DNA of 64,000 nucleotides from Aristaeella hokkaidonensis. GTDB lineage: Bacteria > Bacillota > Clostridia > Christensenellales > Aristaeellaceae. Under the pieces are notes generated by a model. The model was not told the DNA's origin and searched no databases. It saw only the letters and a list, made by a program, of their open reading frames with translations. Shown here one piece after another: positions 4,186 to 57,688 of the stretch. The first letter of the stretch is position 1. Each line of letters opens with the position of its first letter. The stretch covers positions 2,976,001 through 3,040,000 of the forward strand of contig NZ_CP068393.1 of the NCBI RefSeq assembly GCF_018128945.1. The letters are read 5' to 3'. The position numbers were made by a program, and so were the translations under genes.

Positions 4186-5358
4186 ATGGAAGTACGTCTA
4201 CTGAAACCGGAAGAACATTTTGAGGCGAACCTGATTTCCACCGTGGCTTTCCATATGAAGATGGAAGATCCGGAGAAGAACCGGGAGGAGAGCCTGAAGA
4301 GCCAGGATGAGGACTGGGGTGCATTTTCCGAAGACGGAAAAGTGATGGCCCGGATTATCAATAACCACTATGAAACGCGCCTGGACGGGCAGCGGGTCCG
4401 GAACGGCGGAATCGGCGCTGTGTCCACGCTGCCGGAATACCGGAACACCGGCGCCGTGAAGGCGATCTTCGAAAAGCTGATTCCGGAAGCTTACCGGAAC
4501 GGGGAGATTATCTCCGCCCTGTATCCCTTTAACCACGCGTTTTACCGTAAGTTCGGCTATGAAACCGTCCGGTGGCAGGATCATTACGAGTTTGTACCGG
4601 CCGTGCTGAGCGGCTACCGCTTTTCCGGGGACGCGGAACTGTGGAAGCCCGGTGATCCGGTAAGCGAGTATACAGCCCTGTACAACCGGTTTGCGGACAG
4701 CTTCAACCTGGCCATGTACCGGGATGACAAAATGATGCTGGATCTCATCAAGGGAGAATACTATAAGGACCGGAAGTTCTGCTACCTGCTTAAGGAAAAC
4801 GGAAAAACCGTGGCTTACCTGATCTTCCAGGATGTACGTAATGATCCGGCGGCGATCCTGACTGTGAAGGACATCGCCTGGGACGGCAAAGCAGGATTCT
4901 ACGCGATCCTGGGCTTCCTGGCCCGTTTCACCGCGGACTACGGCACTATCCGCCTGTTCCTGCCTTCCTGCCTGCAGCTGCTTTCCGTGATCCAGACACC
5001 CCGGGCTTACGATATCCAGCAGACGGCTACCCAGAGTTATATGGTCCGGGCGATGAACGTGAAGCGGATTCTGGAGATCATCAAAAAACCGGATGACAGC
5101 CAGTTTGTCATCCGGGTGGAAGGCGACGCGCTGATTCCTGAAAACAACGGAACCTGGAAAGTCTGCGGAAACAGCATTGAACAGACAGAAGAGACGCCGG
5201 ACCTGACGGTTTCCATCCAGGCCTTCGGCCAGATGGCAGTCGGCGCGGTAAGCCTGGCGGAAGCAATGTACCGGCCGGACGTGACAGTGTCCGGCAACGA
5301 AGCGGTACTTGAAAAGGTGTTTGTACGCAAACCCATCCTGGTGGAGGATCATTTCTGA
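4186..5358 (+). CDS. Eis-like GNAT N-acetyltransferase with SCP2-type C-terminus
   Basis: A 390-residue protein with the architecture of the Eis family: an N-terminal GNAT domain (roughly 1-140, with the acetyl-CoA region around RNGGIGAVSTLPEYRNTGAVKAI), a second degenerate GNAT domain (about 150-280) and a C-terminal sterol-carrier-like domain (about 290-390). Eis proteins form hexamers and acetylate amines, including aminoglycosides and lysines of proteins or peptides. The start has AGGAG 9 bp upstream. Nothing in the neighbourhood shows the substrate. It converges with the glycosylase gene on the other strand only 10 bp away. Confidence 0.85.
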   Translation: MEVRLLKPEEHFEANLISTVAFHMKMEDPEKNREESLKSQDEDWGAFSEDGKVMARIINNHYETRLDGQRVRNGGIGAVSTLPEYRNTGAVKAIFEKLIPEAYRNGEIISALYPFNHAFYRKFGYETVRWQDHYEFVPAVLSGYRFSGDAELWKPGDPVSEYTALYNRFADSFNLAMYRDDKMMLDLIKGEYYKDRKFCYLLKENGKTVAYLIFQDVRNDPAAILTVKDIAWDGKAGFYAILGFLARFTADYGTIRLFLPSCLQLLSVIQTPRAYDIQQTATQSYMVRAMNVKRILEIIKKPDDSQFVIRVEGDALIPENNGTWKVCGNSIEQTEETPDLTVSIQAFGQMAVGAVSLAEAMYRPDVTVSGNEAVLEKVFVRKPILVEDHF

Positions 5359-5368
5359 TCCGTCCGGA

Positions 5369-5863
5369 TTATTCCTTCAGGACAGCCCAGGCGGCGGTCA
5401 GCTTTTCCAGAGACCACTGGGCATTGGCCGGACTGGTGGAGGGAAGGCAGACGGCCTCCCTTCCCAGGGCGGGAAGAATATACCTGTTATACATTTCATG
5501 GGATTTCCGTCCGTTGCAGTAAATCCGCTCAATCGGACAGGAATCCAGGATGATCCTGAGATCATTGGCCCGGACATCCCGGATGCTGGCATCCGAGGAA
5601 CCGGTGATGACGCAGCTGGCGATGGAATCCCAGAGCGCCAGGCCATGACTCAGGATCAGTTCTTTTTTCTCGGGAATGGCTGCCGGTACCGGCCGGTCAA
5701 ACAGAGCGGCGATTACTTTCCAGAACCGGTTCTGCGGATGACCGTAAAAAAAGTTCTGCTCCCTGGATTTTACCGAAGGAAAGGAACCCAGGATCAGGAT
5801 CCGGCTTTCCGGACAGAAAAGCGGCCCGAAGGGATGCTGGATTCTTTGCTCCTGTGCGCTCAT
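5369..5863 (-). CDS. DNA-deoxyinosine glycosylase (uracil-DNA glycosylase superfamily)
   Basis: A 164-residue member of the single-domain UDG superfamily group that removes hypoxanthine (deaminated adenine) and sometimes uracil from DNA. The signature at the N-terminus is GSFPS followed by YGHPQNRFW, and a STSPAN segment occupies the usual second motif near the C-terminus. The frame extends further upstream, but I start at ATG 5863 because AGGGGG lies just before it and because a promoter (-10 at 5898-5903) sits inside the longer version. It is divergent from a type-4 uracil-DNA glycosylase; together they cover deaminated A and C. Confidence 0.85.
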   Translation of the reverse strand: MSAQEQRIQHPFGPLFCPESRILILGSFPSVKSREQNFFYGHPQNRFWKVIAALFDRPVPAAIPEKKELILSHGLALWDSIASCVITGSSDASIRDVRANDLRIILDSCPIERIYCNGRKSHEMYNRYILPALGREAVCLPSTSPANAQWSLEKLTAAWAVLKE

Positions 5864-12775: not shown

Positions 12776-12897
12776 ACCGGAAATGAAATATCAGCCTGCG
12801 GCTGATGTGAAATATTCAACTTTGTCGAATATGAAATGTGCTTCACACATGAAATATCAGAGCGCCGGGTTACAGCCCGGACGCTCTGATGTGATGA
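12752..12897 (+). repeat. Array of five hairpins joined by RTGAAAT connectors
   Basis: Five inverted repeats of unrelated stem sequence follow one another: arms 12752-12763/12771-12782 (spanning the GH51 stop codon), 12790-12796/12800-12806, 12814-12817/12827-12830, 12836-12840/12846-12850 and 12856-12869/12876-12890. Between them a constant heptamer RTGAAAT occurs at 12783, 12807, 12831 and 12849, and GTGATGA ends the array. Most stems begin and end with AT. A second array of the same design lies at 54617-54699. I do not recognise the family. Confidence 0.75.
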
Positions 12898-17696: not shown

Positions 17697-17726
17697 TTGG
17701 ACAGGGGTAAAAACGGTGGATATAAT
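17697..17726 (+). promoter_or_regulatory. Promoter of the MetQ-like gene
   Basis: TTGGAC at 17697-17702, 18-bp spacer, consensus TATAAT at 17721-17726. Expected transcription start near 17733, giving a leader of about 145 nt. Confidence 0.7.
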
Positions 17727-17830: not shown

Positions 17831-17876
17831 AAAATAAACCCTGAATGAATTTTGAAATAATGAGAGGAGAATTCCC

Positions 17877-18710
17877 ATGAAAAAGATTATTGCTCTGCTG
17901 GTTGCCCTGGTACTGACCCTGTCCCTGACTGCCGCTTTCGCCGACGGTATCAAGATTGCCGTTCCCAATGACGCTACCAACGAAGGCCGTGCCCTCCTGC
18001 TGCTGCAGGCTTACGGACTGCTGAAGGTTGACGAAAACGCCGGTATCACCGCGACGGTGAAAGATATTACCGAGAATCCCCTGAACATCGAGTTTGTCGA
18101 AGTGGAAGCCGCGCTGGTTCCCAACGCCCTGCCCGATGTGGACTACGCCATCATCAACGGCAACTATGCCCTGGCTGCCGAACTGCCTGCCGCCCTGCTG
18201 TATGAGAATGCCGAATCCCCTTACGTGAACGTGATCAGCGTGAACGAAGCGGACAAGGACAGCGACAAGGCCAAGGCCCTGGCTGCTGCAGCGCTGAGCC
18301 AGAAGGTTGTGGACTACTTCGCTTCCTATGAAGGCCAGGCCATCTCCGTGGTGGAGAATCCCACAGACGGTTTCGATGCCACCGTGGACTACGACGCGCT
18401 GAAGGGCGAGACCATCAAAGTGGTTGCCACGCTGGATCCCCACTCCTTTGTGCTGGCGATTGTCAAGGACATCCTGGCTGAGAAGGAAATCAACGTGGAA
18501 GTGACCGTGGTGGATGACTATGTGACTCCCAACACCGCTGTGAACGACGGAGACGCTTTCGCGAACTTCTTCGCCCATCAGCCCTACCAGGATGACTTCA
18601 ACGCCAACAACGGCACCAACCTGGTGACCATCGCCGGTGTTCATGTGGAGCCCATGGGCCTCTACGCCGGACAGCAGGCTGACCTGGCTGCGCTGGGACT
18701 GGCTGAATAA
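17877..18710 (+). CDS. Circularly permuted MetQ/NlpA-family substrate-binding protein
   Basis: A 277-residue secreted protein with a signal peptide (cleavage after AAFA, about residue 21) and no lipobox cysteine. The mature part starts with IAVPNDATNEGRALLLLQ, then ENPLNIEFVEVEAA, AIINGNYAL and SPYVNVISV, which is the order of the C-terminal half of MetQ. After a linker (about 168-180) it continues with ETIKVVATLDPHSF, DDYVTPNTAVNDG, FFAHQPYQDDF and GVHVEPMGLY, which in normal MetQ form the N-terminal half. The halves are therefore swapped, with the new ends at the inter-domain hinge. It precedes metN and metI, so it should bind methionine or a related amino acid. AGAGGAG lies before the start. 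Confidence 0.85.
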   Translation: MKKIIALLVALVLTLSLTAAFADGIKIAVPNDATNEGRALLLLQAYGLLKVDENAGITATVKDITENPLNIEFVEVEAALVPNALPDVDYAIINGNYALAAELPAALLYENAESPYVNVISVNEADKDSDKAKALAAAALSQKVVDYFASYEGQAISVVENPTDGFDATVDYDALKGETIKVVATLDPHSFVLAIVKDILAEKEINVEVTVVDDYVTPNTAVNDGDAFANFFAHQPYQDDFNANNGTNLVTIAGVHVEPMGLYAGQQADLAALGLAE

Positions 18711-18728
18711 TCTTCAGGCTTTGAAGAC

Positions 18729-18760
18729 AAAGGCATCCGGGAAAACCCCGGATGCCTTTT
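18729..18760 (+). terminator. Terminator between the MetQ-like gene and metN
   Basis: Thirteen-bp arms (18729-18741 and 18747-18759, AAAGGCATCCGGG and complement) with a T4 tail. The transporter genes have their own promoter downstream. Confidence 0.8.
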
Positions 18761-18776
18761 CCATCGGAAAAAGGGA

Positions 18777-18838: not shown

Positions 18839-19867
18839 ATGATTGAGCTGAAGAATCTGTCCAAGCAGTTTGAGACGATGGATGGGTCTGTGGATGCGCT
18901 GCGCCACATCAACCTGACGATCCAGGACGGGGATATCTACGGGATCATCGGCATGAGCGGCGCCGGTAAGAGTACGCTGGTACGGTGCATCAACATGCTG
19001 GAGAGACCCACGGAGGGTTCTGTGCTGGTAAACGGCAAGGATATCGGCGCACTGAAACAGAAGGACCTGCGTGCCATGCGGCGGAAGATCACCATGATCT
19101 TCCAGGGCTTTAACCTGCTGATGCAGCGGACCTGCCTGAAGAACGTGATGCTGCCCCTCCGGCTTGGCGGAATTGACCGGAAGACGGCGGAAGCAAAAGC
19201 ACGGGAATTGCTGGCACTGGTGGACCTGCCGGATAAGGCCAACAGCTATCCGGCCCAGCTGTCCGGCGGCCAGCAGCAGCGTGTGGCCATCGCCCGTGCG
19301 CTGGCGACGGAACCGGATGTGCTCCTGTGCGACGAGGCGACATCCGCGCTGGATCCGAAAACAACGCATTCCATCCTGGAGCTGATCCGGGATATCAATA
19401 AAAAACTGGGGATCACCGTGATCGTTATTACCCACCAGATGAGCGTTGTACAGGAGGTCTGCAACCGTGTGGCCATCCTGGAAAACGGCGAAGTGGTGGA
19501 GGAAGGCGGCGTGGCGGAGGTCTTCTCCAATCCACGTGCCAACGCGACCCGGAACCTGATCTATCCGGAAAGCGCGGACGGCGGTTCTGTTTTCCCGGAA
19601 GGCGGACAGCGTATACGGGTGATTTTCAACGGCGCCGTGGCGTCCCGGGAGCCCCTGATCGCAAAGATGGCAATAGACTGCGGCATTATGGCAAGTATTC
19701 TCGGCGCTTCCACCCGTTCGGTGGGAGACCGTGCCTACGGCTATATGCTGCTGGATATTCCAGGCTCACCGGAGAACCTGGCCAAAGCAGTTACTTACCT
19801 GAGCGCCACACCGGATATTACTGTACAGGTTGAAGCGGAATACGCCGCGAAGGAGGTGGAAGCATGA
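18839..19867 (+). CDS. metN: Methionine ABC transporter ATP-binding protein
   Basis: A 342-residue ABC ATPase. Walker A GMSGAGKST at 38-46, signature LSGGQQQRV at 141-149 and Walker B VLLCDEATSALD from 161. The last 85 residues (about 257-340) match the NIL domain specific to MetN, which binds methionine and inhibits transport when the cell has enough. It overlaps metI by 4 bp. The binding-protein gene lies upstream in a separate transcript. Confidence 0.93.
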   Translation: MIELKNLSKQFETMDGSVDALRHINLTIQDGDIYGIIGMSGAGKSTLVRCINMLERPTEGSVLVNGKDIGALKQKDLRAMRRKITMIFQGFNLLMQRTCLKNVMLPLRLGGIDRKTAEAKARELLALVDLPDKANSYPAQLSGGQQQRVAIARALATEPDVLLCDEATSALDPKTTHSILELIRDINKKLGITVIVITHQMSVVQEVCNRVAILENGEVVEEGGVAEVFSNPRANATRNLIYPESADGGSVFPEGGQRIRVIFNGAVASREPLIAKMAIDCGIMASILGASTRSVGDRAYGYMLLDIPGSPENLAKAVTYLSATPDITVQVEAEYAAKEVEA

Positions 19868-20577
19868 ATAACTTTGCCAATGCTTTTACCCCGGAACGCC
19901 TGCAGGAAGCCTGGGAATGCCTGCAGAACGAATTCCCCTTTGCTATCTGGGAAACCCTTTATTCCACCCTGCTTGCCACACTTTTTGCCGTGATCATCGG
20001 CCTGCCGCTGGGTGTGCTGCTTGTGACAGGCGAAAAGAAGGGCATCCGGCCCCTGCCGGCCTCACTGATGGGATTCCTGAACGTGCTGATTAACCTGCTG
20101 CGTTCCATTCCGTTCATTATCCTGATGGTGATGATTATTCCACTGACTCGTGTGATCGTCGGAACTTCCCTGGGTACGGTGGCTTCCATTGTCCCGCTGA
20201 CCATTGCCGCGTTCCCGTTCATTGCGCGACTGGTGGAATCCAGCCTGCGTGAAGTGAATCCCAACATTATTGAGACGGCCCAGTCTATGGGCGCGTCCCC
20301 CATGCAGATCGTCCTGCATGTGATGCTGCCGGAAAGCGTCCCCAGCCTGGTGACCAATATCACGCTGGCGATTACAACCATCATGGGCTATACGGCCATG
20401 TCCGGCGCGGTAGGCGGCGGCGGTCTCGGTAAGCTGGCCCTGGCCTACGGATACCAGCGGTACCGTTACGCGGTACTGTACCTGGCGGTGATCGTGCTGG
20501 TGGTGATTACCCAGATCATCCAGTCTTCCGGAACCTGGCTGGCCGCACGGCTGGACAAACGGCTGAAGAACAAGTAA
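19864..20577 (+). CDS. metI: Methionine ABC transporter permease
   Basis: A 237-residue inner-membrane protein with five or six TM helices and the EAA-loop (about 140-160, SMGASPMQIVLHVMLPESVPSLV-type segment) that contacts MetN. It matches MetI in length and layout (N-terminal cytoplasmic stretch, then TM1 at about 25-50). With MetN it forms the importer; the permuted MetQ supplies substrate. Confidence 0.93.
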   Translation: MNNFANAFTPERLQEAWECLQNEFPFAIWETLYSTLLATLFAVIIGLPLGVLLVTGEKKGIRPLPASLMGFLNVLINLLRSIPFIILMVMIIPLTRVIVGTSLGTVASIVPLTIAAFPFIARLVESSLREVNPNIIETAQSMGASPMQIVLHVMLPESVPSLVTNITLAITTIMGYTAMSGAVGGGGLGKLALAYGYQRYRYAVLYLAVIVLVVITQIIQSSGTWLAARLDKRLKNK

Positions 20578-56596: not shown

Positions 56597-57688
56597 TTAC
56601 TTTTCCAGTGCAGATTCGGAATGGTACAAGGTCATTAAGGTGACGCCGATGGCGGTCAGGGAGGACAGCATCATCAGGTCCAGCAGAATGGTGTACAGGA
56701 ATCCGGAGGAATCCGGATCGACCGTGGCCAGCAGGTAAAGCAGGATCAGCGTGCCGGTGAACAGGCCGAACAGGCCGGCGGGCAGCTTTCCGGCTTTCCC
56801 CCGGAAGGCGATGAGCATCAGGCCGAACAGCACGGCTGTGGCGGCCAGCGCGATATACAGCAGGGTTTCCATCTGGGGCTTGTCAAACACGAACTCAGCC
56901 ATTACGACCGCGCCGGCAGCGGCAACGAGTACCGCAAAGCTCAGGATGGTCTTTTTCCGGTCGGGCCTGCGGCGGATGACCAGGACGATCATCAGGGCCA
57001 GCAGGGTCAGGACCGCGGCGATCTGGGTGAAACGAACGAAGGAATTCAGACGGACGAAGTTGTCTTTCCGGAACTGTTCCAGCAGGATCTGGCTGGTACC
57101 GAGCAACGTAACGAACAGGACGGTAAGCTCTCCTTCGCGGGCATGCTTCCGGCGGCACTGCAGCAGGATCAGGATGACCAACGCGGCGATGGCTTCCCAG
57201 AACCAGACCGCGTATAGCCAGAAACCGGAATTCAGCCCTTCGCTGGCAATGGGGAAGAAGGAGAGGGATTCCAGTGCTTCAGCGCCGACACCCTCGCCGG
57301 TATAGTATTCTCCCAGACGGCAGAAAAAGAGGACTGCACAGGCTGCGGGAGCCAGGGTATCCAGTGCTTCCAGGGGACGGATGCCGCTCAGCTTCGCACC
57401 GGCCAGCGCACCAAGGGTGCCGCCGATGAGGGCACCGTAAAGCGTATAGCCGCCCAGCCAGGGCTGGAACATGAAGGCGAAGGAACTGATTTCATCCATA
57501 TAGCCGTCGAGACGAAGGAAAGTCCAGAAGGCATGCCCCAGGACGACCGCTCCCAGGATTGTCAGCGGCAGGAGCTGAAAGACCTTTTTGTTCAGCAGGC
57601 ACAGCAATGCACCGGCCAGTACGCCGGCCAGCACGGCCAGTCCGTAGGGGGTCAGGTTCAGGGGTCCGATGGACAAGATGGTATTCAT
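56597..57688 (-). CDS. Prolipoprotein diacylglyceryl transferase (Lgt)-like membrane protein
   Basis: A 363-residue protein with about ten TM helices. The first 240 residues follow the Lgt plan: PYGLAVLAGVLAG, WLGGYTLYGALIGG (residues 77-90) and CRLGEYYTGEGVG (123-135), the last matching the Lgt RxGN-x-x-x-GE box. The usual histidine of the HGG motif is Tyr84 here, and Asn of RxGN is Glu127. An extra 120-residue membrane part is at the C-terminus. It is therefore a divergent relative and may not transfer diacylglycerol. It is in an operon with the phosphodiester glycosidase gene upstream. Confidence 0.65.
   Translation of the reverse strand: MNTILSIGPLNLTPYGLAVLAGVLAGALLCLLNKKVFQLLPLTILGAVVLGHAFWTFLRLDGYMDEISSFAFMFQPWLGGYTLYGALIGGTLGALAGAKLSGIRPLEALDTLAPAACAVLFFCRLGEYYTGEGVGAEALESLSFFPIASEGLNSGFWLYAVWFWEAIAALVILILLQCRRKHAREGELTVLFVTLLGTSQILLEQFRKDNFVRLNSFVRFTQIAAVLTLLALMIVLVIRRRPDRKKTILSFAVLVAAAGAVVMAEFVFDKPQMETLLYIALAATAVLFGLMLIAFRGKAGKLPAGLFGLFTGTLILLYLLATVDPDSSGFLYTILLDLMMLSSLTAIGVTLMTLYHSESALEK

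Follow-up and report, generated by a model that had tools for sequence, protein, structure and literature searches.

A circularly permuted protein of the MetQ/NlpA family encoded beside metN and metI in Aristaeella hokkaidonensis

Introduction

Can the two halves of a transporter's binding protein change places and the protein still serve its transporter? This question is raised by a 64,000-nucleotide stretch of the Aristaeella hokkaidonensis genome (contig NZ_CP068393.1, positions 2,976,001 to 3,040,000 of the forward strand; hereafter, the window), where an open reading frame running from ATG to TAA encodes P0001, a protein of 277 amino acids. An earlier reading of the bare nucleotide letters (the sequence-only reading) had proposed that P0001 is a circular permutant of the methionine-binding protein MetQ, with the break at the inter-domain hinge, no lipobox cysteine, and the metN and metI genes downstream. 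Our analysis establishes the swapped order of the halves, their completeness, a linker between the old termini, the conservation of the ligand contacts, the adjacency of metN and metI, and the status of the gene as the sole family member found in its genome. Very probably, P0001 is the methionine-binding protein of a MetNI-Q type ATP-binding cassette (ABC) importer and a complete natural permutant of MetQ, the permutation having arisen at least twice.

Results

Order of the halves

P0001 starts with a signal-peptide-like stretch. The only Pfam family matching it at an E-value of 0.01 is PF03180 (Lipoprotein_9, NlpA/MetQ), with 207.1 bits against a cut-off of 27 bits. The match consists of two stretches, profile positions 94-225 preceding positions 1-94 (profile length 236). 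A phmmer search of PDB with P0001 matched 22 sequences, all of them in two stretches; in each of the four alignments viewed, query residues 176-270 correspond to the chain start and residues 19-156 to the second half of the chain. The same order was obtained with a collinear profile hidden Markov model (HMM) of 270 positions, built from 66 relatives (73 minus seven divergent rows that were dropped). Native P0001 matches positions 124-269 (159.6 bits) and then 27-125 (102.8 bits). Exchanging its halves yields a single match over positions 1-269 with 284.3 bits, and among 200 random rotations of the protein the eight best-scoring ones are cut at residues 167-170. Both PF03180 and the collinear HMM find all conserved positions of mature MetQ in P0001, and the permutation is thus full; the collinear order of canonical, E. 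coli-type MetQ is absent.

These data confirm that P0001 is a true circular permutant of MetQ/NlpA. The swap proposed by the sequence-only reading is visible in the Pfam, PDB and HMM comparisons alike, and a collinear alignment with MetQ, which that reading had said would overturn it, was seen in none of them; its suggestion to align the protein after re-ordering led to the single match described above. Its division into two swapped halves stands, and its limits (residues 21-168 and 180-277) are replaced by approximately 20-158 and 175-273, separated by a linker at 159-174. In the group of permuted proteins that includes P0001 (clade A), the linker has 16-24 residues (n = 98 proteins) and contains invariant positions.

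The NCBIfam models for MetQ/NlpA, TIGR00363 and PRK11063, score P0001 below their cut-offs (130.6 vs. 228.85 and 139.2 vs. 374 bits), which we attribute at least in part to the split of the match. A PHROGs scan matched one family of unknown function.

Predicted structure

The predicted model of P0001 has a mean predicted local distance difference test score (pLDDT) of 90.1 and a predicted template modeling score (pTM) of 0.79. When this model was compared with known structures by an order-bound method, 17 of the 18 MetQ-family rows among the matches listed aligned only within residues 24-162, which they pair with the second half of MetQ. The remaining row, 1p99, gave an alignment that extends to residue 241, with 147 residues aligned. 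Hence domains collinear with MetQ, which the sequence-only reading had named as evidence against itself, were not seen in the prediction: the comparison caught mostly one half. Since the NCBIfam scores fall under the cut-offs and order-bound structure comparison catches one half, a rearrangement of this kind is easily overlooked. Searches of PDB with P0001, with a Faecalibacterium relative, and with a member of the second permuted clade described below, clade B, matched 22 sequences each, and no permuted chain spanning both halves was found among them. The clade B model is weaker (pLDDT 79.9, pTM 0.68), and structural comparison of this weak model yielded no MetQ chain among the 50 entries listed.

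Methionine site

In MetQ of Neisseria meningitidis, methionine is contacted by R156, N213, and N238 on one lobe and by Y81, F98, H100, and Y103 on the other. The equivalents in P0001 are R38, N94, N118, Y215, F232, H234, and Y237, respectively, and all seven are kept. The equivalent of N238 was placed through N229 of the E. coli protein, and the other six contacts by motif and spacing. In N. meningitidis MetQ, the N238A substitution weakens binding by a factor of more than 10^5. Among the clade A proteins, 96 of 96 retain the complete set; among the 17 clade B proteins, the contacts are retained in 16 or 17. In P0001 the new first half contains every equivalent of the first group (R156, N213, and N238) and the new second half every equivalent of the second (Y81, F98, H100, and Y103). 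This lobe-by-lobe split of the published contacts fits a cut between the lobes, and so agrees with the proposed break at the inter-domain hinge, as far as residue mapping can indicate.

Conservation within the genus

The permuted order is not confined to one assembly. The P0001 cluster represents 151 contigs, and a permuted orthologue with 55-100% identity is present in 30 of the 37 genomes of the genus, the source genome included; all 30 retrieved loci (L003-L032) were permuted on reading. In four of the seven other genomes (G004, G010, G013, and G021) a second permuted type takes its place, accompanied in three by collinear copies; one genome has a match to the signal peptide only, and two have nothing. 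Completeness is below 90% in six of these seven. Seven collinear-looking loci found among 24 genomes from the other families of the order (L044-L050) all proved collinear on reading. No PF03180 gene other than that for P0001 was found in the source genome. For the P0001 gene, the ratios of nonsynonymous to synonymous substitution rates (dN/dS, NG86 method) against six relatives are 0.05-0.18, showing that the permuted gene is under purifying selection.

Spread of clade A

A clade A profile separates the two forms: clade A proteins give one full-length match of at least about 317 bits, and collinear ones give two pieces of at most 166 bits. In overlapping genome samples, with loci retrieved for part of the matches, clade A was found in 15 of 396 genomes of the order, in 18 of 391 genomes of the class (the source genome and 17 from nine other families), and in three of 398 genomes of the phylum, of which one (G839) is the only case outside the class. 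In a scan of titled records, 79 loci were kept from the best 80 of 574; 63 of them are permuted, among them a locus on the Faecalibacterium chromosome NZ_CP094466.1, and 16 are collinear (by record title, 13 from Spirochaetota, two from Actinomycetota, and one from Fibrobacter). All 14 Faecalibacterium loci among these best 80 records are permuted. The five Faecalibacterium genomes checked, and one genome titled Christensenella sp., all yielded no PF03180 gene besides the permuted one. Where the source names the relatives of P0001, they are called MetQ/NlpA, D-methionine substrate-binding protein, or hypothetical protein. The sequence-only reading had suggested a search for the same order in related genomes; the search returned it in most of the genus and in further families. 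What goes beyond that reading is the occurrence of the permuted form in nine or more other families of the class, and the existence of another permuted clade that shares the cut and has a linker of its own.

Clade B and the number of origins

Clade B proteins are 31-35% identical to P0001. Their linker has 20-33 residues (n = 17) and is unlike the clade A linker in sequence. In both clades the cut lies at approximately positions 124-130 of the collinear profile, and the mature part is covered. Of 120 genomes sampled from the family, 15 carry clade B by full-span matches of at least 497 bits, one of them with an internal stop; it was also found in two further families (L134 and L135; L139). At five loci (L034-L038) it adjoins a divergent collinear MetQ. 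At three of these (L034, L037, and L038) two importer gene sets stand head to tail, metN-metI-metQ being followed by permuted metQ-metN-metI; the collinear MetQ there, of the YSKSQGPYTEL type, seems to have lost several methionine contacts. Collinear MetQs of this type are probably the seven deviant rows of the contact mapping. A further protein, at L138 (G230, 4693-5598, minus strand), is a divergent full-span match to the permuted profile with a barely recognizable first half; it was counted in neither class and possibly represents a third permuted lineage.

Trees were built on thinned sets of 51, 46, and 78 rows from 186 with sufficiently long halves (113 permuted, 73 collinear). For the 51-row tree the proteins were re-ordered, 10 of them being permuted; L050, a long collinear branch, was left out and other rows were added. 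In this tree clade A (support 100/93) has a MetQ of Coriobacteriaceae as its sister (98/80) and stands among collinear MetQs of the Clostridial type. Clade B (100/100) is nested in the collinear MetQs of the E. coli type, together with four from the same family (98/92). Well-supported branches force two changes of order. A tree constrained to keep the permuted rows in one group is worse by 86 log units (p = 0.00025 in the approximately unbiased (AU) test), and no single-origin tree occurs in 200 bootstraps. In a quick tree of 78 rows, clade A (22 rows) and clade B (six rows) each form one clade, and the two are separate.

Lipid anchor

As the sequence-only reading had noticed, the lipobox cysteine is missing; P0001 has no cysteine at all and lacks the N-terminal lipid anchor of canonical MetQ. 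A natural suggestion would be that the lipobox was lost as part of the permutation. This was rejected, as 17 of 21 permuted rows viewed from other genera have what looks by eye like a lipobox cysteine, and the permuted Faecalibacterium proteins combine a twin-arginine-like signal with a lipobox. Because many permuted relatives have such a cysteine, its absence is a trait of the lineage and not of the permutation. In this genus, the six collinear MetQs viewed are without a lipobox as well. A lipobox pattern search was crude, with false positives at L015 and L030, and its counts were not used. A genome without lipoprotein machinery was likewise rejected, genes of the prolipoprotein diacylglyceryl transferase (LGT) family and for signal peptidase II being present. 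One LGT-family homologue of 363 amino acids lies in the window (56597-57688, minus strand) and is one of seven PF01790 matches in the genome. In N. meningitidis, full stimulation of MetNI requires lipidated MetQ.

Genomic neighborhood

The features of the locus are collected in Table 1. As had been read from the sequence, metN and metI lie downstream of the permuted gene. Both score below the cut-offs of the specific models, metN with 350 bits against 499.7 for NCBIfam ABC_MetN and metI with 204.6 bits against 212 for PRK10782 MetI. Among 147 permuted rows, some of them redundant, metN lies at most 3 kb downstream in 137. The order metQ-metN-metI is only partly a hallmark of the permutation, since it also occurs with collinear metQ (for example, at L040, L041, L116, and L203) and the clade B genes at L134 and L135 come after metN-metI.

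Table 1. Features of the permuted metQ locus (positions in the window).
Feature	Position	Strand	Basis
Sigma-70-like promoter match, TGGACA-17-TATAAT	17698..17726	+	Consensus scan, 11/12, weak
Shine-Dalgarno-like AGGAG before ATG	17865..17869	+	Read from sequence
Circularly permuted metQ (P0001, 277 aa)	17877..18710	+	Pfam, PDB, and HMM comparisons
Signal-peptide-like N-terminus, residues 1-22, no lipobox cysteine	17877..17942	+	Sequence; model helix 2-19
Residues 20-158, second half of ordinary MetQ (profile 124-269), with R38, N94, N118	17934..18350	+	HMM, contact mapping
Linker joining old C- and N-termini, residues 159-174, VENPTDGFDATVDYDA	18351..18398	+	HMM alignment
Residues 175-273, first half of ordinary MetQ (profile 27-125), with Y215, F232, H234, Y237	18399..18695	+	HMM, contact mapping
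Strong hairpin between metQ and metN, attenuator/terminator-like	18730..18758	+	Folding energy
metN, ATPase with NIL domain	18839..19867	+	Pfam ABC_tran and NIL
metI, permease	19864..20577	+	Pfam BPD_transp_1

The promoter scan of the region gave three sites, compared with 1.4 ± 1.3 in shuffled sequences, and support for the promoter is accordingly weak. The region containing the hairpin (18712-18775) has a folding energy of −28.7 kcal/mol (z = −4.1); a terminator scan found no site there. Hairpins of unlike sequence between metQ and metN were seen by eye in many of the 41 rows listed, which are redundant and include the locus itself, and were not seen by eye in the clade B rows L033-L039. In the many clade A loci that have such a hairpin, it could favor production of the binding protein over the membrane subunits. 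No methionine-metabolism riboswitch reaches the Rfam gathering threshold in the window; the only match that does is a Gut-1 RNA (RF01706) at 12781-12860 on the plus strand (52.1 bits, cut-off 50).

Discussion

Three other explanations of the locus have to be weighed. The first, an artefact of assembly or a fusion of gene fragments in decay as the cause of the swapped order, is next to impossible, and nothing found here speaks for it. Misassembly of unrelated fragments, a danger pointed out by the sequence-only reading, is excluded by the permuted orthologues in 30 of the 37 genus genomes and the 63 permuted loci among the 79 kept from titled records, a Faecalibacterium chromosome included; the 151 contigs of the P0001 cluster and the low dN/dS values are equally at odds with an artefact or a decaying gene. 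A shift of ligand, making P0001 a MetQ relative for another amino acid or a methionine analogue, is improbable. The unmet NCBIfam cut-offs for MetQ/NlpA and the lack of a methionine riboswitch match in the window would fit such a shift, but the former result at least partly from the split match, and all seven contacts are kept throughout clade A, the adjacent metN encodes a NIL domain, and the genome has no other PF03180 gene that was found.

The third explanation is a single permutation: clades A and B would descend from one permuted ancestor, and long branches or mixing with collinear copies would have separated them artificially in the tree. The cut site is identical in both clades, and a first quick tree of 106 rows, built without E. 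coli-type rows and with L050, did not force two origins. The C-half taken alone also weighs against two origins, as one origin is retained there in the AU test (p = 0.055), although single-origin trees are again absent from 200 bootstraps. The N-half alone points the other way, with one origin rejected (p = 0.0006), none of 200 bootstraps showing it, and a tree that needs three changes; both half trees were built after removal of five rows (the collinear protein of L034, L040, L042, L205, and L213). Once the E. coli-type relatives are added, two changes are forced, as described above, and the linkers of the two clades are unlike in both length and sequence. A single origin is therefore unlikely. 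At least two independent permutations at one cut appear well supported by the phylogeny, less so by the C-half alone.

Given a complete MetQ permutant, the most natural course of events would be the following. The protein would be exported, would fold as a two-lobed "Venus flytrap" with its new ends at the lobe boundary, and would bind methionine between the lobes and pass it on to MetI in the manner of ordinary MetQ. The permuted gene most likely arose by tandem duplication of metQ, fusion of the copies, and loss of the outer halves. There would have been at least two such events with identical cuts, one giving rise to clade A among the Clostridial MetQs and another to clade B among those of the E. 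coli type. Tandem collinear metQ genes occur at five loci (L199, L200, L209, and L215, and L169 of G544 with three copies in a row), so that a substrate for duplication, fusion, and truncation exists; a fused metQ-metQ intermediate was not found among the loci examined. A more tentative and rather doubtful idea is that MetQ has been permuted at the lobe boundary repeatedly and adaptively, from tandem copies, independently at least twice and at the same cut. With the N-terminal tether or exit point placed on the other lobe, export, anchoring, or docking to MetNI might improve, and for this reason the permuted form might have spread through gut Clostridia.

Permutants within one family, with a known ligand site, transporter neighbors, and collinear relatives, are good cases for learning how a fold can acquire new ends without loss of function. 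With two independent events at one site, in a family for which structures are solved and transport can be assayed, the model of permutation by duplication is directly open to test, and so is the influence that the position of the tether has on an ABC importer. Faecalibacterium is a cultured genus of gut commensals, and in all five of its genomes checked the sole PF03180 gene is permuted.

The sequence-only reading held that no natural permutation had been described in this family. This agrees with the open-access literature, where we found no permuted MetQ; subscription papers and preprints were outside the scope, and priority is thus unproven. A search of passages of PMC2861598 for permutation words found none. 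The statement does not extend to other substrate-binding proteins, which do have natural permutants.

Compared with the known MetQ/NlpA proteins (of E. coli and N. meningitidis, and Tp32 of Treponema pallidum), P0001 is similar in the homology of both halves, the profile positions of the mature part, the seven methionine contacts, and the adjacent metN and metI. It differs in the swapped halves, the 16-residue linker at the old termini, the new termini between the lobes, and the absence of a lipobox. Another natural circularly permuted binding protein of an ABC importer is TpMglB-2 (Tp0684) of T. pallidum, assigned to "Type Ic / Cluster Bc". According to the portion of PMC4990184 available, it binds its ligand and changes conformation, and has relatives in Gram-positive gut commensals as well. 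It is a type I glucose-binding protein in which the first three strands of one lobe are moved and a fourth hinge crossing is added, and identity across the moved part is 13% (PMC4990184). P0001 does not belong to that MglB sequence family, PF03180 being its only Pfam match; judging from the same portion, in MetQ a whole half is moved, and the move is readable from sequence. The available text of PMC2395249 describes a permuted family detected by CPSARST that includes glycine-betaine-binding proteins (OpuAC 2b4l, ProX), molybdate-binding proteins, and CysB. Those cases were detected by structure, between proteins less than 24% identical, whereas the permutation of MetQ, set against what that text describes, is internal to a single family, in which the ligand contacts are conserved and transporter genes are adjacent.
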